A DNA stretch of 9,323 nt from Desulfobacterales bacterium (GTDB lineage: Bacteria > Desulfobacterota > Desulfobacteria > Desulfobacterales > UBA5852). The position numbers and the translations under genes were made by a program. Of the stretch, positions 1-9,323 are shown piece after piece. The stretch is from positions 1 through 9,323 of the forward strand of contig JASJBQ010000163.1 of NCBI GenBank assembly GCA_030066455.1, in the 5' to 3' direction. The notes under the pieces are model-generated. The model had not been told where the DNA came from. It searched no databases and saw only the letters and a list, made by a program, of their open reading frames with translations. Within the stretch, counting starts at the first letter, position 1. Each line of letters starts with the position of its first letter.

Positions 1-64
1 GAATTATGAACGCCAAGTAGGCGAAGCAAAACAAAGAAGCAAAGCAAAAAATAATGAAAACAAG

Positions 65-129
65 CTCATAACATGCGGCTTCAAAAAGGACCGCAAAAAC
101 CGCGCGGCCTCTGAGCCGCAGCGTTGCAT
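65..129 (+). repeat. attC-like site 1 (closes a cassette off the left edge)
   Basis: The arm TGCGGCT at 74-80 pairs perfectly with AGCCGCA at 114-120. Outside it, AAC at 70-72 pairs with GTT at 123-125, with one base of spacer on the left and two on the right, the asymmetry typical of attC. The centre holds a CCGCGCGG palindrome (100-107). The right core reads GTTGCAT, one base off the GTTRRRY consensus. The gene it belonged to is not in the window; the 64 bases to its left show no recognisable product. Confidence 0.6.
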
Positions 130-185
130 TGAACGGAGTACATCGGCTCAGAATTGGTTTTTAAATTTACTTATTCTACAGTCTC

Positions 186-192
186 GTTAGGC
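186..192 (+). repeat. Isolated R'-type core box GTTAGGC
   Basis: GTTAGGC is the classic attC right core, or an attI insertion point, and it lies 23 bases before the hydrolase start. No matching left arm can be found between it and the previous core at 123. It may be the right end of an attC whose left half was lost. The 61 bases between the two cores are AT-rich and show no gene; a weak promoter there is possible but not supported by good -35/-10 spacing. Confidence 0.35.
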
Positions 193-215
193 ATAAAATC
201 CTAAAGAGGATAACT

Positions 216-1037
216 ATGATTGACCATCATATAGATAATAGTTTTTCTTCCTCCCAAGGTAATATTGCACACGGGAGTGAAGGGAGTGGCCCCGATGTGG
301 TATTGGTGCATGGGACACCATTCAATTCTGTGATTTGGCACTTATTAATCTCACAGTTGAAACAAGATTTTCGAGTGCATTGGCTTGATTTACCAGGCTA
401 TGGTCGCTCTGATAAGTATGACGGCCAAGATGTGAGGTTAAGAAGCTTGGCAAGGGTGTTGGTGGAATGGTTAGGCTACAAAAAACTGTATAAATGCCAC
501 TTAGTGGGACATGATTTTGGTGCGGCTGCGGTACTAGGAAGTGTATGCGTTGAAGGTTATCAGGCATTGAGCTTGAGTATCGTTGATGGCGTGGTATTGA
601 ATCCATGGGGAACGGTATATTCCCTCTTAGTAAAACAAAACCAAAAAGTTTTTGAGTCTCTTCCTAACTATATCCACGAAGCGACCTTGCGTGCACATAT
701 TTCGACAGCTTCTTACCACCTTTTACCTGAATCTATCGTGCAGAAATTACTGATACCGTGGATTCAAGACGGCGGGCAACAAGCCTATTACCGGCAAGTC
801 GGGCAATATGACCATGGTTACACTGCCAAGCTGGAAGATTTATATCCAAAATTGCAGATACCAACTCGCATATTCTGGGGTAGGGAAGATGCTTGGGTTA
901 AATTAGGTGTCGGAGAGAAATTAGCTTCGTTGATTCCTGCTGCAACTTTAAAAGTTTTACCGGATGCCGGTCATTTATCTATGCTTGACAGCCCTGGATT
1001 GCTATCCCAAGAATTAAAGAGGTGGTTGGACAGTTAG
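216..1037 (+). CDS. Alpha/beta hydrolase, epoxide hydrolase / haloalkane dehalogenase type
   Basis: A 273-residue single-domain alpha/beta hydrolase, probably cytoplasmic, with no signal peptide. The oxyanion-hole motif HGTP is at residues 32-35. The nucleophile elbow reads G-H-D-F-G with Asp100 in the nucleophile position, followed by acid Asp225 (WGRED) and His253 (DAGH). In this fold an Asp nucleophile in a GHDxG elbow marks epoxide hydrolases and haloalkane dehalogenases, which form a covalent alkyl-enzyme ester, rather than Ser esterases. The cap region (about 130-210) differs too much to name a substrate. The start has a good ribosome site, AGAGGA at 204-209. It is the first complete cassette gene in the window and its stop codon runs into the left end of attC 2. 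The triad is complete, so it is likely active. Substrate unknown. Confidence 0.88.
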   Translation: MIDHHIDNSFSSSQGNIAHGSEGSGPDVVLVHGTPFNSVIWHLLISQLKQDFRVHWLDLPGYGRSDKYDGQDVRLRSLARVLVEWLGYKKLYKCHLVGHDFGAAAVLGSVCVEGYQALSLSIVDGVVLNPWGTVYSLLVKQNQKVFESLPNYIHEATLRAHISTASYHLLPESIVQKLLIPWIQDGGQQAYYRQVGQYDHGYTAKLEDLYPKLQIPTRIFWGREDAWVKLGVGEKLASLIPAATLKVLPDAGHLSMLDSPGLLSQELKRWLDS

Positions 1038-1088
1038 CCAACAAGGCACTTCAGCTGACGGCTACGCCGCCGCAGTGTTTCGTCGTCA
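1037..1088 (+). repeat. attC-like site 2, after the hydrolase
   Basis: It starts GCCAACAAGGCACT right at the hydrolase stop codon. GGCACT (1045-1050) pairs with AGTGTT (1074-1079), including two G-T wobbles, and an inner hairpin CGGC-TAC-GCCG lies at 1059-1069. The AACAAGGC left end is shared with sites 4 and 6. The right core is degenerate (about 1082-1088, GTCGTCA), so recombination may be poor. Confidence 0.58.
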
Positions 1089-1093
1089 TAGAA

Positions 1094-1486
1094 ATGAAAA
1101 AAAACCTGATCCTGATAATTTCGACACTATTCTTACTTTTATGGATCAATCATTTCGCAGGGGAATTGGGTCACCTATTTAAAAGGATAGAAGATAAATA
1201 TATTTTCCATGTCGTTTATTCCGCAGTCTATCTATTGGTAAGCGCTGTCGTATTTTTGTTATTCTCGAAGTTAAAGAAATTCCACTATAAATTATTTCTA
1301 TGTGTGGTCGGGGCATTGGTCACCCAGATAGTTTCCGTAGCAATGCTGTATTGGATCAATTTCGAGCGCCTTGGTGATATTGGAATCATTATCGGTCTGG
1401 GATTTGGTTCGGTTTTACAATGGGTGCCGGTTTCAATCGTTTGGTATTTTGCATTAAAACAGTTTTATAAAAGTTCAGAAAGCTAA
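1094..1486 (+). CDS. Four-helix membrane protein of unknown function
   Basis: 130 residues starting at ATG 1094; I prefer this to a start at 1022, which would overlap the hydrolase and translate attC 2. Four hydrophobic segments are visible: about residues 4-22, 39-58, 65-88 and 97-121. Short charged loops separate them (K30-R31-E33-D34; K59-K62), with a basic K2-K3 at the N-terminus and a polar tail. I recognise no family motif. It may be an inner-membrane protein. The start follows attC 2 by five bases and lacks a clear Shine-Dalgarno sequence, so expression may depend on readthrough from upstream cassettes. Its stop overlaps the left core of attC 3. Small membrane ORFans of this kind are common integron cargo. 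Confidence 0.72.
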   Translation: MKKNLILIISTLFLLLWINHFAGELGHLFKRIEDKYIFHVVYSAVYLLVSAVVFLLFSKLKKFHYKLFLCVVGALVTQIVSVAMLYWINFERLGDIGIIIGLGFGSVLQWVPVSIVWYFALKQFYKSSES

Positions 1487-1551
1487 CATAGCGCTGGCAT
1501 CAACGCGAAAACGCTGGCGCGTTTTGCTCGTCTCGGGCTCGGTCGTTGGAC
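1481..1551 (+). repeat. attC-like site 3, after the membrane protein
   Basis: The left core AGCTAAC (1481-1487) overlaps the preceding stop codon; the right core GTTGGAC (1545-1551) fits GTTRRRY. AAC pairs with GTT at the ends. The centre carries a perfect 7-bp hairpin, AAAACGC / GCGTTTT with loop TGGC (1508-1525), a form seen in the variable centre of many cassette attC sites. The outer arms pair poorly. The next gene starts 18 bases after the right core. Confidence 0.6.
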
Positions 1552-1569
1552 CGAACATAAGGAAATACA

Positions 1570-2403
1570 ATGGAATTCACAGAAATAAATTACGAAAAAC
1601 GCGAGGCTACGAGGATAATTCGGTTCAACCGCCCTGATGTCTGTAATTGCATCGGCCCCAAAACTCATTTGGAATTGATTCAAGCATGGACGGATTTTCG
1701 TGACGATGCGAGCGCTAAGGTCGCCATTATTACCGGCGCGGGAGATAAGGCCTTTTGCTCCGGTGGCGACCTCTCCGCCGGTGATGACCTGGTGCCCAAA
1801 ACCCCAACAGAAATTGAATCTCACAATCGAGGCGAACAGCCAGGCATACTCGGTCCAAGCCGGTGGACCGACATCTATAAACCGATTATTGCCGCCGTCA
1901 ACGGAGTGGCCTATGCGGGTGGATTGGAGTGGGCCTGCTTCGCGGATATACGCATTGCCGAAGAACATGCCACGTTTGGGGTGACATGCAGGAGGTGGAA
2001 CATAGGTCTGGCAGATGGCGGCACACAACGATTACCACGAATCATCGGCATGGGTCGAGCGATGGAACTTATCATCACAGGTCGTGTTATCGATGCGCAG
2101 GAAGCTAAGCAAATCGGCCTCGTCAACGAGATCGTTCCCAAGGGCAGGTCTCTCGAACGTGCGCTAAGTCTGTCCGGGTTCATTTGTGAACTTCCACAGC
2201 CTGCCATCAGAACGGACAAAGAAGCTGCCATCCGTGGTTTTGGATTACCTTTGGCGGAAGGATTGCGGATCGAGGCCGAATGTTTTAATCGTTCGATCTA
2301 CGATCCCGCAACTCGTGAGGGCCTTCGACAATTTCACGAAAGGGATCACCCGGATCGCCGGAGAGGCGAGGCCCAACGAACACCAGGACTTGTAAGGGAT
2401 TAA
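1570..2403 (+). CDS. Enoyl-CoA hydratase/isomerase family (crotonase) protein
   Basis: 277 residues of the crotonase fold, which acts on acyl-CoA thioesters. The oxyanion-hole loop AFCSGGDL is at 61-68 and the second loop, AVNGVAYAGGLEWACFADIRI, spans about 109-129. Glu120 aligns with catalytic Glu144 of rat mitochondrial hydratase. The segment from F136 to the GGTQRL at 150-155 has the same length as in that enzyme, but the position of catalytic Glu164 is Cys140 within TCRRWN. A CRRW-type sequence here is, from memory, a known subgroup of annotated 'enoyl-CoA hydratases' whose reaction is unsettled, so plain hydratase activity is doubtful. Start: AAGGA six bases before ATG. The C-terminal 25 residues are unusually basic and another frame stays open to 2395 (see findings). 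A metabolic enzyme as integron cargo is unusual; no pathway partners lie nearby. Confidence 0.88.
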   Translation: MEFTEINYEKREATRIIRFNRPDVCNCIGPKTHLELIQAWTDFRDDASAKVAIITGAGDKAFCSGGDLSAGDDLVPKTPTEIESHNRGEQPGILGPSRWTDIYKPIIAAVNGVAYAGGLEWACFADIRIAEEHATFGVTCRRWNIGLADGGTQRLPRIIGMGRAMELIITGRVIDAQEAKQIGLVNEIVPKGRSLERALSLSGFICELPQPAIRTDKEAAIRGFGLPLAEGLRIEAECFNRSIYDPATREGLRQFHERDHPDRRRGEAQRTPGLVRD

Positions 2404-2416
2404 CTAACGGCGTAGG

Positions 2417-2665
2417 GTCTAACAAGGCTATAACGCATCTCAAAAATAATCTAAGTGCCCCTGGCGGTGTTCCCCGCGTTGCGGGATTCAGCATCGGATC
2501 TTGTAATTTTCGGTGCATCTTGAGCCGGCTCAAAATGCTCACATACTGCGTGTATGCTCCGCTTTTTCGCCATCTCACGCCTTGCCAGGAACCCTAAGCT
2601 TAATTTTGAGATACGTTCTAATCAAGCCGCTGCAAAACGATGCATAACTCTTAGTGTGCCCAATT
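2417..2665 (+). repeat. attC-like site 4, split by a MITE-like insertion
   Basis: The left core GTCTAAC (2417-2423) fits RYYYAAC exactly and is followed by AAGGCTA. The sequence is then interrupted by the element at 2431-2618. If the element and one TA copy are removed, the left part reads AACAAGGCTAATCAAGCCG, then CTGCAAAA, which lines up base for base and without gaps with attC 6 (AACAAGGCCAATTCAGCCG, then ATGCAAAA). The expected right arm and GTTRRRY box are not evident downstream (about 2640-2665), so the site appears both interrupted and degenerate. The right end given here is approximate. Confidence 0.55.
2431..2618. mobile_element. MITE-like non-autonomous element, TA target duplication
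   Basis: A 188-bp element. The left end TAACGCATCTCAAAAATAA (2431-2449) and the reverse complement of 2600-2618 agree at 16 of 19 positions. Both ends are flanked by TA (2429-2430 and 2619-2620). Pairing continues inward: CTAAG with CTTAG and CCTGGC (2460-2465) with GCCAGG (2584-2589). An internal hairpin CATAC-TGCGT-GTATG lies at about 2542-2556, with a GAGCCGGCTC palindrome just before it. No ORF of a transposase is present. TA duplications are typical of Tc1/mariner/IS630-type transposition; assignment to that group is inference. Confidence 0.65.
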
Positions 2666-2693
2666 TTAAAATCGGTATGGGGCAGGACAGATC

Positions 2694-2834
2694 ATGAAAT
2701 ATAAAATCATAGGTGCTGTTCTTGTTCTTACTGGCCTGTTGATGATTGCCAAGTTCGGTCAGCATTTAATGGGTCTAATTCTATTGTTTATTGGTTTCTA
2801 CCTGGCGATGAAAAAAGGAATGAAGTCGGTGTAA
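2694..2834 (+). CDS. Small membrane peptide, 46 residues, unknown
   Basis: ATG at 2694, preceded by AGGA about seven bases upstream, opens a 46-residue frame. The peptide starts MKYKIIGAVLVLTGLLMI. Two hydrophobic stretches (about 4-19 and 23-39) are separated by the polar K20-F-G-Q-H, with a basic C-terminus (KKGMK). It could be a two-helix hairpin membrane protein. No family recognised. Its stop codon is followed, in the same frame and without any gap, by the remains of an SMI1/KNR4-like gene, so the pair may be a deletion junction. It lies after the MITE-disrupted attC 4 and before attC 5, as a cassette gene would. Confidence 0.6.
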   Translation: MKYKIIGAVLVLTGLLMIAKFGQHLMGLILLFIGFYLAMKKGMKSV

Positions 2835-3188
2835 CCCTATGAATTCGATGACGTTGACTGGAGGCTCGCAACTTCAAACGAGCTTGTCGAAAACGTCAAC
2901 ATTGATGGCCAAGAATACTAAAATATTCATCAACTCATCGGATATGTTCAAACGATTGCGGAATTTTTCGGAGGTGATGCGACAACCGACGCCGATGACA
3001 ATGAATTTCCGTTCGATCGTCTCAAGGCAGGACTTGCATTCGCCACAGGCGACGGAGACGTGCTCTTTCTTGATCCAGCGGACAACTTTTCCGCGTGGCG
3101 CTTTCACCAAGATGGGGGTGACGTGGTGAGATATGCTTCATCATTCGGCCAATGGTTTTCAATTGCGAAAGGCGACGATGCAAATTGA
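2835..3188 (+). pseudogene. SMI1/KNR4 (SUKH)-like gene remnant
   Basis: A single reading frame gives protein-like sequence over 117 codons but lacks a start codon and has an in-frame TAA at 2919-2921. Before the stop it begins PYEFDDVDWRLATSNELVE; after it come NIHQLIGYV, then NEFPFDRLKAG, then GDVLFLDPADNFSAWRFHQD and SFGQWFSI, ending at TGA 3186-3188. The acidic strand-rich pattern with GDVLFLDP and a hydrophobic FGQWF end resembles SMI1/KNR4-type (SUKH) proteins, many of which are immunity proteins to polymorphic toxins. That family call is from memory of the pattern and moderately sure. There is no in-frame Met after the stop. An overlapping frame from ATG 2839 is out of register and composition-poor, and is treated as spurious. 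Confidence 0.55.
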
Positions 3189-3254
3189 CTCGCAACCGTC
3201 ACAATGTCTTCTCAACCTAATTTTACGTTTAATAAAGACAGAATTATTTTAAAG

Positions 3255-3332
3255 ACATAATTGGCGGCACAAGATCTCGGACCCCTGAGCGGCCCTGGCC
3301 TGTGACCCAGGGCGTTATGTGAGCCGTTGAAT
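3255..3332 (+). repeat. attC-like site 5, before the DUF2867 gene
   Basis: ACATAA (3255-3260) pairs with TTATGT (3315-3320), giving a right core GTTATGT, and the centre has CCCTGG (3293-3298) pairing with CCAGGG (3307-3312). A second possible right core, GTTGAAT at 3326-3332, fits GTTRRRY exactly and contains the start of the next gene. Which core is used is unclear. It ends the cassette with the small membrane peptide and SMI1-like remnant. Confidence 0.5.
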
Positions 3333-3837
3333 GATTGCGATTGAAAAATACAAAGAGTTTGAGGTTTATTTCCAGAATGCGGACTATATCGATCTTAAAA
3401 CCATTGAAGGGGATGTCGCTTTAAGAAATTTTATTTCGGGAATGCTCTCTTATTATCCTTGGTGGATTGTTTCTTTGTACAGAATCAGGGCAATTCTTGT
3501 AGGTATCCTCGGGCTCGTTCGGCATGAAAAGCCAGAGACCTTGCCCTCAATAACACCGGAGGATCTTTCCTTTACGCCTGGTGAAAATGCATCCTTCTTT
3601 ATTGTGCGGGAAGCAAAAGAGGATCGGTACTGGGTATCAGAAACACCTGAAGATAAGCACTTGACCGCATTTCTGGGCGTCATCGCAGAAAAATTACATC
3701 CGCCTCGTACAAGGTATCACGTTTTCACTTCAATCAAGTATCTTCACTGGACCGGGCCGGTGTATTTCAACTTGATTCGGCCTTTTCATCACATGGTTGT
3801 ACGCAGCATGATGAAAGCAGGTATAAAGAACCGCTAA
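3331..3837 (+). CDS. DUF2867 domain protein
   Basis: 168 residues, apparently complete. An N-terminal region with ADYIDLKTIEG (17-27) is followed by a hydrophobic, aromatic helix around SYYPWWIVSLYRIRAILVGIL (40-60), a beta-rich middle (FTPGENASFFIVREA, 81-95), and a C-terminal part with DKHLTAFLGV (108-117), TRYHVFTSIKYLHWTGPVYF (127-146) and PFHHMVVRSMMKAG. The conserved DxHL and the GxxYF...PFHHxVV ending are the pattern I associate with DUF2867, a domain also found fused to NAD-dependent epimerase-like proteins; its function is not established. No clear ribosome site: the ATG overlaps the possible attC core GTTGAAT. The stop lies a few bases before attC 6. No signal peptide. Confidence 0.72.
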   Translation: MIAIEKYKEFEVYFQNADYIDLKTIEGDVALRNFISGMLSYYPWWIVSLYRIRAILVGILGLVRHEKPETLPSITPEDLSFTPGENASFFIVREAKEDRYWVSETPEDKHLTAFLGVIAEKLHPPRTRYHVFTSIKYLHWTGPVYFNLIRPFHHMVVRSMMKAGIKNR

Positions 3838-3840
3838 ATC

Positions 3841-3890
3841 ACACAACAAGGCCAATTCAGCCGATGCAAAAAGCCACGCGACTGATTGGC
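3841..3890 (+). repeat. attC-like site 6, right core missing
   Basis: This is the clearest paired site. GCCAAT (3851-3856) pairs with ATTGGC (3885-3890); T3857 is unpaired; CAG (3858-3860) pairs with CTG (3882-3884); then one mismatch and CG/CG. A single unpaired base in one arm is the feature that sets strand choice in attC recombination. The left end ACACAACAAGGC follows the DUF2867 stop. After 3890, where GTTRRRY should occur, the sequence reads ACCAAATTC, so the right core has been lost. Confidence 0.68.
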
Positions 3891-3979
3891 ACCAAATTCA
3901 ATAGGAGCCAATATCCCCAAGCAAAAGACCAAGGGCGGGAAGGACTGATCCTGCCACAGCCAAAGCTGGGGGTGGGTAG

Positions 3980-4273
3980 GTCTGGGATGACGTCCTGGCG
4001 TATCGTGTCTGGTGCCGCCCACAAAATGAAGACCTCAATATTCAGAATTTGGATTACAGTTTTGTGGTCGGATTTTGGAAGATGTACAACCAATTCCTTA
4101 TCAACCTGATTAAAAGTATTAAACCACTAAATATGCAAAACGTATGGAAAACTAACGCTGGTCAAGAATACACTTTAGAATTCTTGATTGAAGACTATTT
4201 CACGCATATGAAATCGCATTATCAGATGTTTAGAGACAGACAACAAGAAATTGAAGCATCAAAAGCGCGCTGA
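3980..4273 (+). pseudogene. DinB-like protein gene, 5' end lost
   Basis: A frame open from just after TAG 3977-3979 to TGA 4271-4273 gives a coherent C-terminal fragment of about 97 residues: DDVLAYRVWCRP at its start, then NLDYSFVVGFWKMYNQFLI, VWKTNAGQEYTLEFLIEDYF and THMKSHYQMF. The final helix carries H-x3-H, the typical metal-binding pair at the end of DinB/YfiT four-helix proteins, and TLEFLIEDYFTHM is typical of that family. DinB proteins are usually about 150-170 residues, so roughly the first third is missing. An ATG at 4049 could start a 74-residue product, but family-like sequence extends upstream of it without a start codon. It lies directly after the attC that lost its right core. 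Confidence 0.6.
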
Positions 4274-4280
4274 CCGCATG

Positions 4281-4341
4281 CCTTAACTGGACTGGTGCCA
4301 CGCTAGCGCTCCGCAGCTGCCGCCAAGCATGGACGTTGAAA
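4281..4341 (+). repeat. attC-like site 7, after the DinB remnant
   Basis: CCTTAAC (4281-4287) and GTTGAAAC (4335-4342) form near-consensus outer cores whose AAC/GTT parts pair. Inside, GGTG (4293-4296) can pair with CGCC (4321-4324) around a GC-rich centre. The arms are weak, so the call rests mainly on position: just after one stop codon and four bases before the next start. Confidence 0.45.
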
Positions 4342-4345
4342 CATT

Positions 4346-4606
4346 ATGAAGCTAAAACCTATATCGATGAGTGACATTTATCTTTGGTCGAAATTCAGGA
4401 AAGAAATCTATTTGACCGAAAGTGAAAGAAGCAAAGGTTGCGGCACAGAGGTCATCGCGATGATCAAGCGTTGGTGCCGGGAACACGGGTATTCAGAGCT
4501 TGGAACGGACACCGAACTCACCAACATTCACGCTCAGCAGTTTTACGAGCATAACGGATTCGAGCAGGTGGATCGAATTGTGGCATACAGGCTCGACCTA
4601 CATTAA
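4346..4606 (+). CDS. GNAT acetyltransferase, AAC(6')-like, internally deleted
   Basis: 86 residues, against about 145 for AAC(6') aminoglycoside acetyltransferases. The first 20 residues, MKLKPISMSDIYLWSKFRKE, match the usual N-terminus of that group, and residues 21-86 match its second half: IYLTESERSKGCG contains the acetyl-CoA binding R-x-x-G-x-G (28-33), followed by TDTELTNIHAQQFYEHNGF and a final strand VAYRLDL. The stretch between them (strands beta2 to beta4 and the acceptor-binding region) is missing, so about 60 residues appear deleted in frame near residue 20. The product is probably inactive. The ATG follows attC 7 by a few bases. Other GNAT subfamilies are possible, but the N-terminal match favours the AAC(6') type. 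Confidence 0.68.
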   Translation: MKLKPISMSDIYLWSKFRKEIYLTESERSKGCGTEVIAMIKRWCREHGYSELGTDTELTNIHAQQFYEHNGFEQVDRIVAYRLDLH

Positions 4607-4672
4607 CTATGACTTTTCGCTGGAGCATTAGGCAGATAGACGCCGGCGCGGGTCCCCCGTTTCAGCTTAGAC
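4600..4672 (+). repeat. Possible degenerate attC-like site 8 at the array end
   Basis: CATTAAC overlaps the acetyltransferase stop. ATTAGGC (4627-4633) and CTTAGAC (4666-4672) each differ by one base from GTTAGGC/GTTAGAC right cores. No convincing paired arms are visible, so the site is supported mainly by core boxes and position before the chromosomal genes. Confidence 0.3.
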
Positions 4673-4718
4673 ATTGGGATGCCTGCTTTGTGACACGGAT
4701 TTGAATGGTTCCCAAGGC

Positions 4719-5099
4719 ATGAAAAAGTTCATCCACGACAACCTGTTCATCATATTGGGATGGTTTTTTACGCTGTTAGGGGTTATCGGCATCATCCTGC
4801 CGCTGCTTCCGACCACGCCATTCCTGATCGTGGCGTTGATATGCTTCTCCAAAAGCTCGCCGCGATTTCATCGCATGTTGCTGGACAACGCCTGGTTTGG
4901 TCCGAGCTTGAGACAATGGGAAGCAACCAAGACCTTGTCACGGAAAACCAAATACAAGGCGTCCGTGTTGATCATCGTTACTTTTTCGATTTCCATCGCC
5001 ATTTTCAGCCAAACGATCCTGACGCCGCTGCTGCTGGCGGGTTTAGCCGTTGTCCTGCTGATATGCATTTGGCGGATCAAAGAACAAGTCGACGGATGA
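4719..5099 (+). CDS. YbaN family (DUF454) inner-membrane protein
   Basis: 126 residues from ATG 4719, where YbaN proteins normally begin; a TTG at 4674 would add 15 residues that do not fit the family. The conserved core GVIGIILPLLPTTPFLIVAL (21-40) is followed by CFSKSSPRFHRMLL (42-55), NAWFGPSLRQW (57-67) and two more membrane helices (about 82-99 and 100-118). The order helix, LPLLPTTPF, helix, SSPR-H, WFGP is diagnostic of DUF454. Function unknown. It is the first gene beyond the cassette-like region and its stop TGA overlaps an ATG (ATGA at 5096-5099), pointing to translational coupling with the FMN-binding protein gene that follows. Confidence 0.88.
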   Translation: MKKFIHDNLFIILGWFFTLLGVIGIILPLLPTTPFLIVALICFSKSSPRFHRMLLDNAWFGPSLRQWEATKTLSRKTKYKASVLIIVTFSISIAIFSQTILTPLLLAGLAVVLLICIWRIKEQVDG

Positions 5100-5143
5100 A
5101 ACAGCACTTACGCCGCCTGGGAGCGGCACGGGGGATTGAAACC

Positions 5144-5524
5144 ATGCACCTTCGAATGCAAATCAGGAAGTACACCCTCACGATCATCCTGATTGGAATC
5201 CTCGCGGGGCAACTGCCTGGCTGCACCACGGAGAAAATCGTTGGGGGGCCGATAACTGAAGGAAGCCTGAAGGACGGCGTCTACGAAGGGTCTGCCAGCG
5301 TGGGGCCCGTTAAAGTCGTCGCAGAGGTCACGATCGACGAACACAGGATCGCCCGGGTCGAGCTGCTCGAGCACCGCACGTGGAAAGGCGGGGCGGCCGA
5401 AGGGGTCATTCCGGGCCGCATCATCGAAGCGCAGTCCACGCAGGTCGATGCCGTCTCCGGTGCGACCATGAGCAGCCGGGCCATCATGAATGCGGTTGAG
5501 GTGGCCATTCGTAAGGCCGAATGA
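5144..5524 (+). CDS. FMN-binding domain lipoprotein
   Basis: A small periplasmic electron carrier. From ATG 5144 it has 126 residues; ATG 5156 (122 residues) and ATG 5096, overlapping the previous stop, are alternatives. I chose 5144 for its GGGGG upstream and because it gives a sensible signal peptide: basic start, TLTIILIGILAGQ core, lipobox LPGC, so the mature protein is probably lipid-anchored. The FMN_bind domain follows: DGVYEGSASVGPVKV, then VTIDEHRIARVELLEH, ending VDAVSGATMSSRAIMNAVEVAI. SGAT is the flavinylation motif, with the Thr (residue 104 counted from Met 5156) the expected site for covalent FMN transfer by ApbE. No ApbE gene is in view. Likely partner: an inner-membrane electron source, possibly linked to the YbaN-family neighbour. 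Confidence 0.88.
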   Translation: MHLRMQIRKYTLTIILIGILAGQLPGCTTEKIVGGPITEGSLKDGVYEGSASVGPVKVVAEVTIDEHRIARVELLEHRTWKGGAAEGVIPGRIIEAQSTQVDAVSGATMSSRAIMNAVEVAIRKAE

Positions 5525-5545
5525 ACCTTGCCAGCCCAACGTGCT

Positions 5546-6172
5546 TCAATCGCCTGACGCTAAACGCCGCCTCAAGACCCCGAGAGTTTTCTCCCGCCCT
5601 TGATCATCAAAAAAGCCCGATGCCAGCGCCGTCTCGTAGACCTGTCGCGGGGCCTGGCCCCCTTCGGCCGGGTCCATGAAGATGTCGTGGATCAGCAGGT
5701 AACCGCCGGGGATGATGTGCCTGGACCAGGCCGCGTAGTCGCCCCGGGCCGCCTCGAGACTGTGCCCCCCGTCGATAAACACGAAGCACAGGGGGGTGGC
5801 CCACTGGCGGGCGACCAGCGTCGAAGCACTGACAATCGGAATCACGGTGTCTTCCAGGCCGCCTCTGGCCAGCGTTTGTCGGAAGAAATTGACCGTATCG
5901 ATCCGGCCGGTGGCCGGATCGATCAGGTCCGGGTCGCAGTATACCTCCCCGGGCTGCTGCTCCTCCGAACCCCGATGGTGGTCGATGGAGAACAGCACAC
6001 TGCCAGCATCTTTCAGACCCGCACCCAGGTACAGGGCCGACTTGCCGCAGTAGCTGCCGATCTCGAGCCCCGGCCCCAGCCGCCCGGCCTCGCGCGCGAT
6101 TTCATAAAGTTTCAACCCTTCGGCTTCATCCAGAAAGCCCTTGGTCTGGTCAATTAAATGCTTGTCGATCAT
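5546..6172 (-). CDS. Class I SAM-dependent methyltransferase
   Basis: 208 residues, a complete Rossmann-type methyltransferase of the Methyltransf_24 kind. Motif I for SAM binding is GLEIGSYCGKSALYLG (35-50); the acidic end of beta2 is FSIDHHRG (61-68); CFVFIDGGHSLEAARGDYAAW (129-149) gives Asp134 and His137; HIIPGGYLLIHDIF (152-165) follows. D64/H66, D134/H137 and H162/D163 may bind a metal, as in O-methyltransferases with the DGGH motif. Substrate unknown; TylF-like O-methyltransferases and cephalosporin hydroxylase-like proteins share this pattern. It lies 157 bases after ftsK on the same strand and could be its last operon member. It ends 21 bases from the convergent FMN-binding gene, with no clear terminator between. 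The start lacks a strong ribosome site. Confidence 0.87.
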   Translation of the reverse strand: MIDKHLIDQTKGFLDEAEGLKLYEIAREAGRLGPGLEIGSYCGKSALYLGAGLKDAGSVLFSIDHHRGSEEQQPGEVYCDPDLIDPATGRIDTVNFFRQTLARGGLEDTVIPIVSASTLVARQWATPLCFVFIDGGHSLEAARGDYAAWSRHIIPGGYLLIHDIFMDPAEGGQAPRQVYETALASGFFDDQGREKTLGVLRRRLASGD

Positions 6173-6237
6173 GGCTTGGATAGAAATATGTCTGCGATTT
6201 GCAGAAGAAGTATGACTTAATTCGGCGTCGCAATCGC

Positions 6238-6308
6238 CATCGAGATCGGAATCGAATGAATTTCACTGCAGTTTTGTCATCGAGACTCGATACCGATTCC
6301 GATTCCGA
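6238..6308. repeat. Short GGAATC/GATTCC repeats between ftsK and the methyltransferase
   Basis: ATCGGAATCG (6245-6254) is perfectly inverted at CGATTCCGAT (6294-6303), and the latter runs on as two tandem CGATTC-type units to 6308. CATCGAGA also occurs twice in direct order (6238-6245 and 6278-6285). The arms could form a stem with a loop of about 39 bases. No gene is seen in the 157-bp spacer. Confidence 0.55.
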
Positions 6309-6311
6309 CCG

Positions 6312-6345
6312 CGAGGATAAAATCCCCCCCTACCCCATATCCTCG
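6312..6345 (-). terminator. Hairpin across the ftsK stop codon
   Basis: CGAGGATA (6312-6319) is perfectly inverted at TATCCTCG (6338-6345), spanning the ftsK stop at 6330-6332, with a C-rich 18-base loop on the + strand (G-rich in the mRNA). There is no U-run after it, so it would be a weak terminator or an RNA 3'-end stabiliser at most. Confidence 0.3.
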
Positions 6346-8564
6346 TAGTTGCGCACCAGCACCTCGCGCGGTTTGGCCCCGTCGGCCGGGCCGATAATGC
6401 CTTCGCGCTCCATGGTTTCGATGATCCGGGCTGCGCGGTTGTAGCCGATGCGCAGGTGGCGCTGGACCATGGAAATGGAGGCCTGGCCCTGCTGGGTCAC
6501 CAGGGCCACGGCGTCGTCGTAGCGCTCGTCGTATTCGGTCTCCTCGCCGTCGCCGGTCTCGCCGGCGGGCGCCGCCGCGGTGACGGCCTCGTTGTAGTCG
6601 GGCGTGCCCTGGGCCTTGAGGAATTCGGTGATGCGGTTGAGTTCGGTCTCGGAGATATAGGCCCCGTGGATGCGCTGCAGCTTGCCGGCCCCGGGCGGCA
6701 TGAAGAGCATGTCGCCCTTGCCGAGCAGGGTTTCAGCGCCGTTGGTGTCCAGAATGGTGCGCGAATCGGTTTTGGAGGACACCTGAAAGCTCAGCCGGGT
6801 GGGAAAGTTGGCCTTGATGATGCCGGTGAGCACGTCCACCGAAGGACGCTGGGTCGCCAGGATCAAGTGAATGCCGGCCGCGCGCGCCATCTGCGCCAGG
6901 CGGGTCAGGGCCACCTCGACGTCGCGGGAGGCCACCATCATCAGGTCGGCCAACTCGTCGATGATGATGACGATCAGCGGCAGCGGCTCGAGCGGTTTTT
7001 CTTCCGTGCCCTCCGGCGTCGGCTTGGCTTTTTTCTTGGCCGCCTTGGCGACCTTCTGGTTGTACTGGGCCAGGTTGCGGACCTTCATCTCCGAGAGCAG
7101 TTCGTAGCGGCGCTCCATTTCGCGCACCGCCCAGAAGAGCGCGTTGGTGGCCTTCTTGACATCCGTCACCACCGGCGTGATCAGGTGGGGAATGCCGTCG
7201 TACATGGTCAGCTCGATGCGCTTGGGGTCCACCATGATCAGCTTGACCTCGCCGGGCGCGGCCTTGTAGAGAAAGCTGCAGATCATGGTGTTCAGGGCCA
7301 CGCTCTTGCCCGCCCCGGTGGCGCCGGCGATGAGCAGGTGCGGCATCTTCTCCAGTTCGGCCACCACCGGATTGCCGATGATATCCTTGCCCAGGCAGAT
7401 GGTCAGTTTGGATCGTTGGTTCTCGAAGGCCGGGGAGACGGCCACTTCCTTGAAACGCACCGTCTCGCGGTCCTGGTTGGGAATCTCGATGCCGATCACG
7501 GCCTTGCCCGGAATGGGCGCCACGATGCGCACACTGGTGGCCCGCAGCGTCAGGGCCAAATCGTCGGACAATCCCACGATCTTGTTGATTTTGACCCCCG
7601 GGGCCGGCGCATATTCGAAGGTCGTGATCACCGGCCCGGGCGAGACGGCCACCACATTGCCCCGCACGTTGAAATCTTCCAGTTTCTTCTCCAGCAGCCG
7701 GGAGAGCATACGCAGGTTTTCATCGTCGGCCGAGACCTTGGACGGTTCGGGTTCGTCCAGGAACGAGAGCGGCGGCAGCTGGAATGCGCCGTCTTTTTTC
7801 TCGAAAGCGAAGACCTCCTGCTTGGGGCGTGCCGCCGGTTTCATCACCTTCTTCTTGGGGGCCTTGATCTTGATCTCGGGTGTGGGGTCGGCTTGGGTCT
7901 TGATCCGGGAGTTGCGTTTCTGGGCTTTCAGACGCCGCTCGCGGCGCTTGAGGTAAAACGTCTTGATCCGGTCGCCGACCCGGCTGACCAGCGCCCAGCA
8001 GCGGTCGCTGAAACTCAGCAGCGAAAAACCCGTCATGAGAATGAAGCCCACCAGCCAGAGCAGGGCCAGGATGATAAAAGCGCCGGTCGCGTTGGTGTAG
8101 CGCGCCAGAAATGACTGCAGGGCGATGCCGATCAGGCCGCCCGAAGTAAAGCGGTGGCCGAACAGGATGTAGTCGGCGCTGCGGAAGGCCAGCAGCGCAC
8201 CGGTCATCAGGATCAGCAGGCCACCGCCCAGGAGCGCGAGGCCGAGGGTCCTGGCATCGCGGCTGCCGAAAAACTGGATGCTCAGAAAAAGCAGCAGGAT
8301 CGGCACCCAGAAGGCACCCAGTCCGAAGAGGCCGATGAGGATGCCCGCCAGGTGCGCCCCCACCAGGCCGAACAGATTGTGGATGGCCTCACCCGAGGTG
8401 GCGTTGTTCACGGAAGGGTCCTGGGGATGGTAGGACACCAGGCTGACCAGCGTGAACACCAGAAGAAAGAACAACAGAATCCCGATGATTTCTTTTCGCA
8501 TCGCCCTGTCGGTGTTTATGGCCGGCGCCCGTCGCGCCGGGCTCTGCCCGTCGGTTCGCTTCAA
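6330..8564 (-). CDS. ftsK: DNA translocase FtsK
   Basis: 744 residues from TTG 8564; ATG 8501 (residue 22, MRKEIIGILLFF) is an equally good start and matches usual FtsK N-termini. The N-terminal membrane domain has four or five helices (about 24-46, 63-98, 107-127, 141-154, 160-184). A short basic linker (200-250) follows, far shorter than in E. coli FtsK. The motor has Walker A GATGAGKS (414-421), Walker B LIVIIIDELAD (530-540), ATQRPSVDVLTG (570-581) and SRTILD (601-606). The C-terminal gamma winged-helix (about 678-744), with DDAVALVTQQGQASISMVQRHLRIGYNRAARI, reads chromosome-orienting KOPS sequences and activates XerCD at dif. It pumps DNA through the septum during division. It starts nine bases after the RNase J stop, so the two are likely co-transcribed. 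Confidence 0.96.
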   Translation of the reverse strand: MKRTDGQSPARRAPAINTDRAMRKEIIGILLFFLLVFTLVSLVSYHPQDPSVNNATSGEAIHNLFGLVGAHLAGILIGLFGLGAFWVPILLLFLSIQFFGSRDARTLGLALLGGGLLILMTGALLAFRSADYILFGHRFTSGGLIGIALQSFLARYTNATGAFIILALLWLVGFILMTGFSLLSFSDRCWALVSRVGDRIKTFYLKRRERRLKAQKRNSRIKTQADPTPEIKIKAPKKKVMKPAARPKQEVFAFEKKDGAFQLPPLSFLDEPEPSKVSADDENLRMLSRLLEKKLEDFNVRGNVVAVSPGPVITTFEYAPAPGVKINKIVGLSDDLALTLRATSVRIVAPIPGKAVIGIEIPNQDRETVRFKEVAVSPAFENQRSKLTICLGKDIIGNPVVAELEKMPHLLIAGATGAGKSVALNTMICSFLYKAAPGEVKLIMVDPKRIELTMYDGIPHLITPVVTDVKKATNALFWAVREMERRYELLSEMKVRNLAQYNQKVAKAAKKKAKPTPEGTEEKPLEPLPLIVIIIDELADLMMVASRDVEVALTRLAQMARAAGIHLILATQRPSVDVLTGIIKANFPTRLSFQVSSKTDSRTILDTNGAETLLGKGDMLFMPPGAGKLQRIHGAYISETELNRITEFLKAQGTPDYNEAVTAAAPAGETGDGEETEYDERYDDAVALVTQQGQASISMVQRHLRIGYNRAARIIETMEREGIIGPADGAKPREVLVRNYEDMG

Positions 8565-8573
8565 CCCCCGGCT

Positions 8574-9323
8574 TCAGACCTCGATGATGATCGGCAGAAT
8601 CATCGGCCGCCGGGCAATCGTAAAGAAAAAATACTGTTTGAGCACGCGCTTCAGCTTGGCGCGGATCTTTTCCGCCCGGTCGGGCGATTCCGGGCTGACG
8701 TCTTCCACCACCTCCAGCACGACGCAGACGGCATCGTCCAGAAGATGGCCGGTTTCGAGTTCGAAGACAAATCCCCGGGAGAACATTTCCGGGCCGTAGA
8801 CGATGGTGCCCGTATCCTCGTCCAGGGCCATGATCACCACCACGAGGCCGTGCTCGGAAAGATTGCGCCGCTCCTTGAGCACGCTGCGCCCGACATCGCC
8901 GATGCCCTTGCCGTCGATCAGCACGCGCCCGGTGGCGATCCGCTCCTGCAGACGCCCGCCCTGCCGGTTAAAGACCACCACCTGACCGTTTTCGGCCAGC
9001 AGCACCCGCTCCTGCGGAATGCCGATTTCCTGGGCCAGGCGCGAATGCAGGGTAAGGTGGCGGTACTCGCCGTGGACAGGCATGAAGAACCGCGGTTTGG
9101 TCAGGTTGATCATCAGTTTGAGCTCCTCCCGGAAACCGTGACCCGAGACGTGGATGTCCGAAATCTTTTCGTAGATCACGTCGGCGCCCTGACGGTAGAG
9201 CCGATTGATGATGCCGGCGATGGCGCGCTCGTTGCCGGGAATAAACTTGGAGGAGAGAATGACCGTGTCTTCCTTGCGGATCTTGATGTGCTTGTGCGTG
9301 CCGGCGGCCATCCGGGCCAGCAC
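8574..9323 (-). CDS. rnj: Ribonuclease J, C-terminal part (5' end outside window)
   Basis: The last 249 residues of a beta-CASP metallo-beta-lactamase ribonuclease, cut by the right edge; full proteins are about 550 residues. The fragment starts inside the beta-CASP domain (LARMAAGTHKHIKI), continues with SSKFIPGNE (25-33), then HVSGHG (58-63), a conserved RNase J motif, and PVHGEYRHL (82-90), which returns to the lactamase fold and supplies metal-site His residues. The remaining part, with IATGRVLIDGKGIGDVG and GLVVVIMALD, is the linker and C-terminal domain. RNase J acts as a 5'-3' exonuclease and endonuclease in mRNA decay and rRNA processing. The first residue shown is internal, not a start codon. 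ftsK follows it directly. Confidence 0.93.
   Translation of the reverse strand: MLARMAAGTHKHIKIRKEDTVILSSKFIPGNERAIAGIINRLYRQGADVIYEKISDIHVSGHGFREELKLMINLTKPRFFMPVHGEYRHLTLHSRLAQEIGIPQERVLLAENGQVVVFNRQGGRLQERIATGRVLIDGKGIGDVGRSVLKERRNLSEHGLVVVIMALDEDTGTIVYGPEMFSRGFVFELETGHLLDDAVCVVLEVVEDVSPESPDRAEKIRAKLKRVLKQYFFFTIARRPMILPIIIEV

Follow-up and report, generated by a model that had tools for sequence, protein, structure and literature searches.

The stretch of DNA described here (the window) comprises 9,323 nucleotides of a Desulfobacterales bacterium (GenBank assembly GCA_030066455.1, contig JASJBQ010000163.1, positions 1 to 9,323 of the forward strand). Its left half holds eight small genes or gene remnants, all on the + strand, which alternate with attC sites of the kind found in integrons. 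An integron cassette consists of one small gene and one attC, and an IntI-type tyrosine recombinase recognizes the folded bottom strand of the attC. The row spans about 4.6 kb and begins 65 bases from the left edge of the window. Very probably the row forms the right-hand end of an array of integron cassettes, most likely a CALIN (cluster of attC sites lacking integron integrases), in an uncultured member of the Desulfobacterales, a group of sulfate reducers. The features of the array are listed below; S0 to S7 are its attC sites, and in the text G denotes the genomes of relatives and L the loci fetched from them.

66-129, + strand: attC S0
216-1037, + strand: alpha/beta hydrolase, 273 amino acids, full domain (Pfam Abhydrolase_6, 4e-21)
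1036-1091, + strand: attC S2
1094-1486, + strand: membrane open reading frame (ORF), 130 amino acids, function not known
1481-1551, + strand: attC S1, the best preserved
1570-2403, + strand: crotonase/enoyl-CoA hydratase, 277 amino acids (Pfam ECH_1, 5e-49)
2418-2637, + strand: attC S3, split by an insertion
2431-2617, no strand assigned: repeat within S3 resembling a miniature inverted-repeat transposable element (MITE)
2694-2834, + strand: hydrophobic ORF, 46 amino acids, coding status uncertain, no family above cut-off
2838-3188, + strand: SUKH-1 (SMI1/KNR4) remnant with an in-frame stop
3255-3320, + strand: attC S4
3331-3837, + strand: DUF2867 protein, 168 amino acids (Pfam PF11066, 8e-28)
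3841-3896, + strand: attC S5
4049-4273, + strand: ORF of 74 amino acids (ORF74), no family
4281-4341, + strand: tentative attC S6
4346-4606, + strand: GNAT remnant, nearest to AAC(6') families, 86 amino acids, mainly the C-terminal half
4607-4679, + strand: attC S7, the last in the array

Covariance models and the attC sites

How can worn attC sites be recognized? Rfam gave no matches in the window at E<=1, and attC covariance models were therefore built from the sites of relatives. The seed was a textbook site (L101, 93-165) beside the integrase of the closest relative, G001, and its sequence matches 32 of the 291 genomes of the order (E<=0.01). Profile searches of the fetched loci returned 74 rows, which came down to 50 distinct sites once duplicates and scores below 26 bits were removed. 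From these, 35 sites of Desulfobacterales relatives were picked by hand for the first model, R1. The second, R2, was trained on 61 R1 matches (E<=0.12, 34 loci) and the broadest, R3, on 86 R2 matches (E<=0.3, 14 loci), the window sequence being absent from all three training sets. As a control, R3 with default filters scored nothing at E<=5 across 1,228,404 bases around ftsK from 80 relatives.

Three sites with the R''-L''...L'-R' structure, all on the + strand, reach E<0.01 with at least one of the three models. (i) S1 scores 47.7, 49.2, and 44.9 bits with R1, R2, and R3 (E 1.6e-13, 2.4e-13, and 3.6e-9). Its R' box reads GTTGGAC, and its DNA is 82-85% identical to attC in L101 and L147. (ii) S0, which closes a cassette cut by the window edge, scores 9.9, 20.1, and 27.8 bits (E 0.86, 4e-4, and 4.7e-5) and has an R' box, GTTGCAT, with its core intact. 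(iii) S7 scores 23.1, 16.9, and 10.0 bits (E 3.1e-5, 0.004, and 0.89), the R3 match being partial and not significant. The remaining window matches of the models have E values of at least 0.6, and two of those from R3, at 1036-1093 and 3215-3320, coincide with gene junctions.

S2, S4, and S5 rest on sequence homology to the attC of relatives. S2 scores 9.4 bits with R3 (E 1.2), and its 5' half is homologous to sites in L175, L176, and L177 that themselves score 43.9, 42.1, and 38.4 bits with that model. It matches 9 of the 291 genomes, the three just named being confirmed at attC by R3, which was run on them and on L179; the match in L179 is no attC by R3, and those in L178 and L180 look unlike attC. 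S4 is 76-77% identical over 41-43 nucleotides to attC of the array on contig C2 of G002 (L185, L197) and falls within the R3 hit at 3215-3320 (7.7 bits, E 3.3); it matches 3 of the 291 genomes, none shown to match at attC. S5 is 87% identical over 46 nucleotides to array sites in L150 and L160, has further matches in L150 and L151, and its L160 counterpart scores 22.8 bits with R3. Counterparts in the arrays of relatives are thus on record for S1, S2, S4, and S5. The window sites are of several sequence types (S1; S3 and S5; S4; others), not the alike sites within one array that mark a sedentary chromosomal integron.

S6 is tentative. R1, R2, and R3 all miss it at E<=10, and it comes from a structural scan, in which it scores 11.4. 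That scan covered the seven gaps between genes with 300 shuffles each. Shuffles did as well 10 times for the gap left of the hydrolase, 15 for SUKH-DUF2867, 38 for DUF2867-ORF74, and 2 for ORF74-GNAT, where S6 lies; the three gaps of S2, S1, and S7 had no + strand hit. A mechanical scan for R and L boxes gave about 2.6 hits of score >=11.5 per single-strand shuffle of 4.75 kb and overlooks S1. Being unspecific, it was kept only as weak support for S6. A hand-made arm scan was too unspecific alone, boxes of the forms GTTRRRY and RYYYAAC are not in excess in the window, and the pattern AACAAGNCNCTNCAGCNGAC had no match in 165 loci. A second R' box at 186-192 (GTTAGGC), hit by the scanner only (138-192) and without model support, was dropped.

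An earlier note, made from the letters of this DNA, had proposed a decaying integron cassette array, or CALIN, beside core cell-division genes, with at least five to seven attC-like sites in one orientation among eight small + strand genes between 65 and 4672. The sites now stand at three by model, three by homology, one split, and a tentative eighth; all supported sites lie on the + strand, at about one gene per site. The count of eight genes and the span are essentially right, the last site ending at 4679. The note would have been refuted had a covariance model scored no attC at all; R1 to R3 do score them.

Decay in place and the cassette genes

One sign of decay is S3. Its two pieces, 2418-2430 and 2618-2637, correspond to consecutive stretches of the same attC sites in relatives. 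The left piece is identical to the L160 site at 13 of 13 positions, which none of 2000 shuffles equaled. The right piece agrees at 16 of 20 positions; shuffles did as well 25 and 27 times in 2000 for two references and 192 times in 2000 for a third, with a shorter match. The 3' half of the site was not recognized. The pieces overlap by CTA at the junction, likely a target duplication. Between them sits the MITE-like repeat, whose arms (2429-2465 and 2584-2620) are 37 nucleotides long and 78% complementary. It is matched in 8 of 10 genomes, with 31, 68, and 54 matching stretches, which are pieces rather than copies, in G001, G005, and G011 (19-68 across these and G013). A piece of it also occurs in the L075 locus.

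The core boxes are altered at most of the other sites. The R' core is changed to GTC in S2 and to ATT, in place of GTT, in S7. It is lost in S5, whose L150 and L160 counterparts have a GTTA-type R'. In S4 the R'' box is altered (ACATAAT, with an AAT core) and R' reads GTTATGT. Both cores, AAC and GTT, survive together in just two supported sites, S0 and S1. Two of the genes are remnants as well. The C-terminal piece of the SUKH gene scores 20.9 bits (E 5.7e-4), under the Pfam cut-off of 25.4, and the GNAT gene scores 50.3 bits against NF043067 (cut-off 140), its residues 17-83 aligning to positions 72-138 of a 140-position profile. The broken AAC(6')-like gene of the earlier note is this GNAT remnant, and of the other cargo it had named, the hydrolase, the crotonase, and the DUF2867 gene have Pfam matches. 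Changed core boxes, an inserted repeat, a stop in the SUKH gene, and a reduced GNAT gene together show that the array is decaying.

Do the genes themselves point to cassettes? A 100% identical copy of the hydrolase protein is listed for a Desulfobacterales metagenome-assembled genome (MAG), and relatives of the hydrolase occur in 4 of 24 genomes, the best at 36%. In G120 an attC of 27.5 bits stands 15 nucleotides past the match to a relative of 31-33% identity and on its strand (L204); the other three hydrolase-relative loci have no attC by R3. G178 carries a DUF2867 relative of 54% identity and, about 0.8 kb further on, the first site of a row of same-strand attC; the loci of weaker relatives, from G002 and G004, contain no attC. 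The DUF2867 family is large and widespread (703 proteins), so the gene alone is no integron marker. The membrane ORF has 7 homologues among 56 candidates and no family above the Pfam cut-off. With few relatives beside attC, gene-level evidence for a cassette origin is weak, and it is the sites, not the genes, that carry the case.

The membrane ORF can also be read from an earlier GTG start, over 1022-1486 and straight through the attC (peptide ...ANKALQLT...). A database entry 98% identical to it, P0121, has 154 amino acids, the length of this longer reading, and probably has a mis-called start.

The ftsK locus and the integrons of relatives

To the right of the array lie two accessory genes and then a core block.

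4674-5099, + strand: DUF454 gene (Pfam, 1.9e-35), accessory flank, not a recognized cassette
5144-5524, + strand: FMN-binding lipoprotein-like gene (Pfam, 2.8e-12), accessory flank
5546-6172, - strand: methyltransferase (Pfam Methyltransf_24), core flank
6330-8564, - strand: ftsK (Pfam FtsK domains), core flank
8574-9323, - strand: RNase J, cut by the window edge (Pfam RNase_J_C, 5e-29), core flank

Read from right to left, RNase J, ftsK, and the methyltransferase on the - strand give way to the FMN-binding and DUF454 genes on the + strand and then to the eight small + strand genes and remnants, which run to the left edge. The G+C content falls from about 62% at the ftsK side to 40-55% inside the array, the change being gradual across the DUF454-FMN segment. 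No tRNA genes were found in the window. FtsK is 94% identical to that of MAG MO_167.B4 (L001, G001), 90% to that of MO_202.B25 (L005, G005), 82% to that in L002 (G002), and 81% to that in L003 (G003). With ftsK and RNase J on its contig the array is chromosomal, subject to the caveat of a chimaera.

Is the array a standing feature of this place? The ftsK loci of 80 relatives, many of them cut short, were compared. The methyltransferase has a DNA match in 43 of the 80, and the contig of G001 diverges from the window directly after it. None of the 80 matches the DUF454 or FMN-binding protein, and blastn found no match to the window starting between 4680 and 5545. Of the cassette proteins, only the crotonase and the hydrolase have matches, to distant paralogues in L052 and L060, and none of the loci holds the window's genes in the same place. 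The conserved synteny that the earlier note had named as the contrary outcome is thus absent from these loci. Among six near genomes, DUF454 has a 72% relative in one (G005, on another contig, in a 3.4-kb locus without attC), and the FMN-binding protein was found in none, in a search without a positive control. Since R3 detects no attC in the 80 ftsK neighborhoods, the array beside ftsK looks like a local acquisition.

Where, then, are the integrases? Pfam finds none among the 15 window ORFs, in a window that reaches just 65 bases to the left of S0. A complete integron, with intI and attI, is not seen in the window and is present elsewhere in relatives. An integron integrase above the curated cut-off occurs in 6 of 10 relatives, the closest one included, and in 2 of 6 members of the family of G001. 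That of G001 (contig C174; L101, 876-2105) is uninterrupted and scores 410 bits against a cut-off of 265. The integrase has attC beside it in G001, G005, and G002. In all three the array starts with intI, which shares its strand with the attC on its 3' side, and a palindrome followed by an AGTTA-type attI-like point, as judged by eye, comes after intI. The intI matches of G005 and G002 contain in-frame TGA codons. G009 has one integron whose layout is the usual divergent one. pepF and pepD adjoin the integrase in G001 and G005, though not in the fetched stretch of G002, and the integrase locus of G001 and G005 is therefore not ftsK.

Contigs of relatives without a detected integrase carry attC too. 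R3 finds attC in G001 on C174 and twice on C146, in G002 16 times on C2 and twice on the integrase contig C4, in G003 as five single sites on five contigs, and in G004, G005, and G011 at one, two, and five sites. C146, C2, and the five G003 contigs carry no integrase match. Arrays without a detected nearby integrase are common in the family of G001, although contig breaks inflate the count (PMC9024848).

Three further features of these integrons were recorded. The reverse-oriented loci (L101 876-2105, L115, and L112, from G001, G005, and G002) have the palindrome in common. In four of the six integrases compared the open frame is 416-444 amino acids long, versus 330-335, owing to an N-terminal extension (L101 876-2105, L084, L085, and L091); Pfam finds a second SAM-like stretch in G001 and not in G008. 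Long attC arrays occur in uncultured Desulfobacterales (L150 and L151 from G120, L147 from G002), with dozens of R2 hits in two 19-kb stretches of G120.

Origin of the array and comparison with known systems

The sequence of events suggested by this layout begins with cassettes that would have been captured in the past by an IntI-type tyrosine recombinase. The array may have come to lie left of the methyltransferase-ftsK-RNase J block because an integrase encoded at another place in the genome inserted it off target, or it may be what remains of an integron after loss of intI. Decay has followed, with core boxes altered in most sites, one site split by a repeat, and two genes reduced to remnants. 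Past capture by IntI, the origin of the array at this place, and its present mobility are all points that we infer. Given a matching IntI acting in trans, the segment from S0 to S1, with the hydrolase and the membrane ORF, might still be mobile, because both sites keep their AAC and GTT cores; the rest of the array is probably fixed in place. In the strict sense, too, the label CALIN is plausible: the integrase of G001 lies beside pepF and pepD, and G001, G002, and G003 have attC contigs without an integrase match.

Several observations weigh against this interpretation. With just 65 bases of the window before S0, the strict CALIN label is a putative one. Five of the eight sites lack a significant covariance score, and S7 loses its significance in the broadest model. 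For S2, a match at attC is demonstrated in only three of the nine matching genomes, and L172, where S4 has its best BLAST hit, is no attC by R3. The models are home-built and differ from those of IntegronFinder, and since every match under the threshold was taken into R2 and R3, some of their training sites are probably false. The clean control around ftsK is blind to sites as worn as S2, with its 9.4 bits, and draws on 80 loci of which many are short. In G013, the 3.5-kb locus of a DUF2867 relative of 65% identity holds no attC by R3. Finally, no second genome confirms the DNA left of the methyltransferase, so a chimaeric contig has to be reckoned with.

A possible but rather doubtful alternative is a complete integron of which the array, linked to its integrase, forms the far part: intI and attI would lie just left of the window, and only the distal end would be decaying. 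The oldest cassettes lie farthest from attI, where decay is to be expected, and the layout of G001, G002, and G005, where intI heads the array in the direction of the cassettes and has an attI-like point on its 3' side, would put intI to the left here. Against this stand the position of the G001 and G005 integrases, beside pepF/pepD and not ftsK, and the 80 ftsK neighborhoods devoid of attC by R3. A chimaeric assembly joining the array side to the ftsK side is quite improbable. The shift in G+C content, the DUF454 and FMN-binding proteins unmatched in the 80 loci, and the contigs of two relatives that end in or beside attC (L101, L115) would fit one. The shift is gradual through the DUF454-FMN segment, however, and the want of blastn matches from 4680 to 5545 fits a labile site beyond the methyltransferase. 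That the hairpins are chance structures or other repeats (repetitive extragenic palindromes, terminators) between horizontally acquired genes can hardly be credited: the unspecific box scan, the unremarkable R-box counts, and the three gaps, that of S1 included, without a structural hit would suit it, but it is contradicted for S1 by 45-49 bits, and also faces 28 bits (R3) for S0, a clean 1.23-Mb control, the same-strand layout, and DNA homology to sites in multi-attC arrays.

Reading the array as a decaying CALIN leaves room for one speculation, itself unlikely. In this lineage of Desulfobacterales, a reverse-oriented integron at pepF (intI codirectional with the cassettes, attI 3' of intI, and an IntI with an N-terminal extension holding a second SAM-like domain) might seed cassettes off target into core loci, the ftsK block among them, and the cassettes would decay where they landed. 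If so, the window would be one seeded site.

How does the array compare with known systems? Like CALINs, it has at least two attC in one orientation and no integrase in view, and CALINs have also been proposed to be degraded integrons. Here, by contrast, wear keeps most sites below a significant score, and only 65 bases of the window precede S0. For CALINs in general, PMC8618304 names as proposed origins insertion off target by a distant IntI, loss of intI, and rearrangement. Xanthomonas, as described in PMC12444791, likewise has integrase-less arrays beside conserved genes with the integrase at another locus; the array positions there recur across species, whereas here attC at ftsK was detected in none of the 80 relatives. 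The reverse-oriented integrons of Treponema (PMC3607928) belong to another phylum, and the like layout is seen here in G001, G005, and G002, not in the window. In the parts of PMC3607928 and PMC9668308 that bear on it, the reverse layout is described only for Treponema or Spirochaetota, and it may still be reported in Desulfobacterota. Integrons are known in Desulfobacterota (PMC8618304, PMC9668308), and a covariance model has been published for deltaproteobacterial chromosomal attC (PMC8352920), the same type of site in the same broad taxon.

Since CALINs beside conserved genes, integrons of Desulfobacterota, and a deltaproteobacterial attC model are all known, the window array is of a known type, and as a cassette array it is ordinary for bacteria. 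What it contributes is a clear example of cassettes decaying where they lie, with core-box changes, a repeat inside an attC, and gene remnants, in an undersampled group. It also brings to light the attC sequence family of the seed site and, together with the reverse-oriented integron of its relatives, supplies material on how integrase-less arrays arise.

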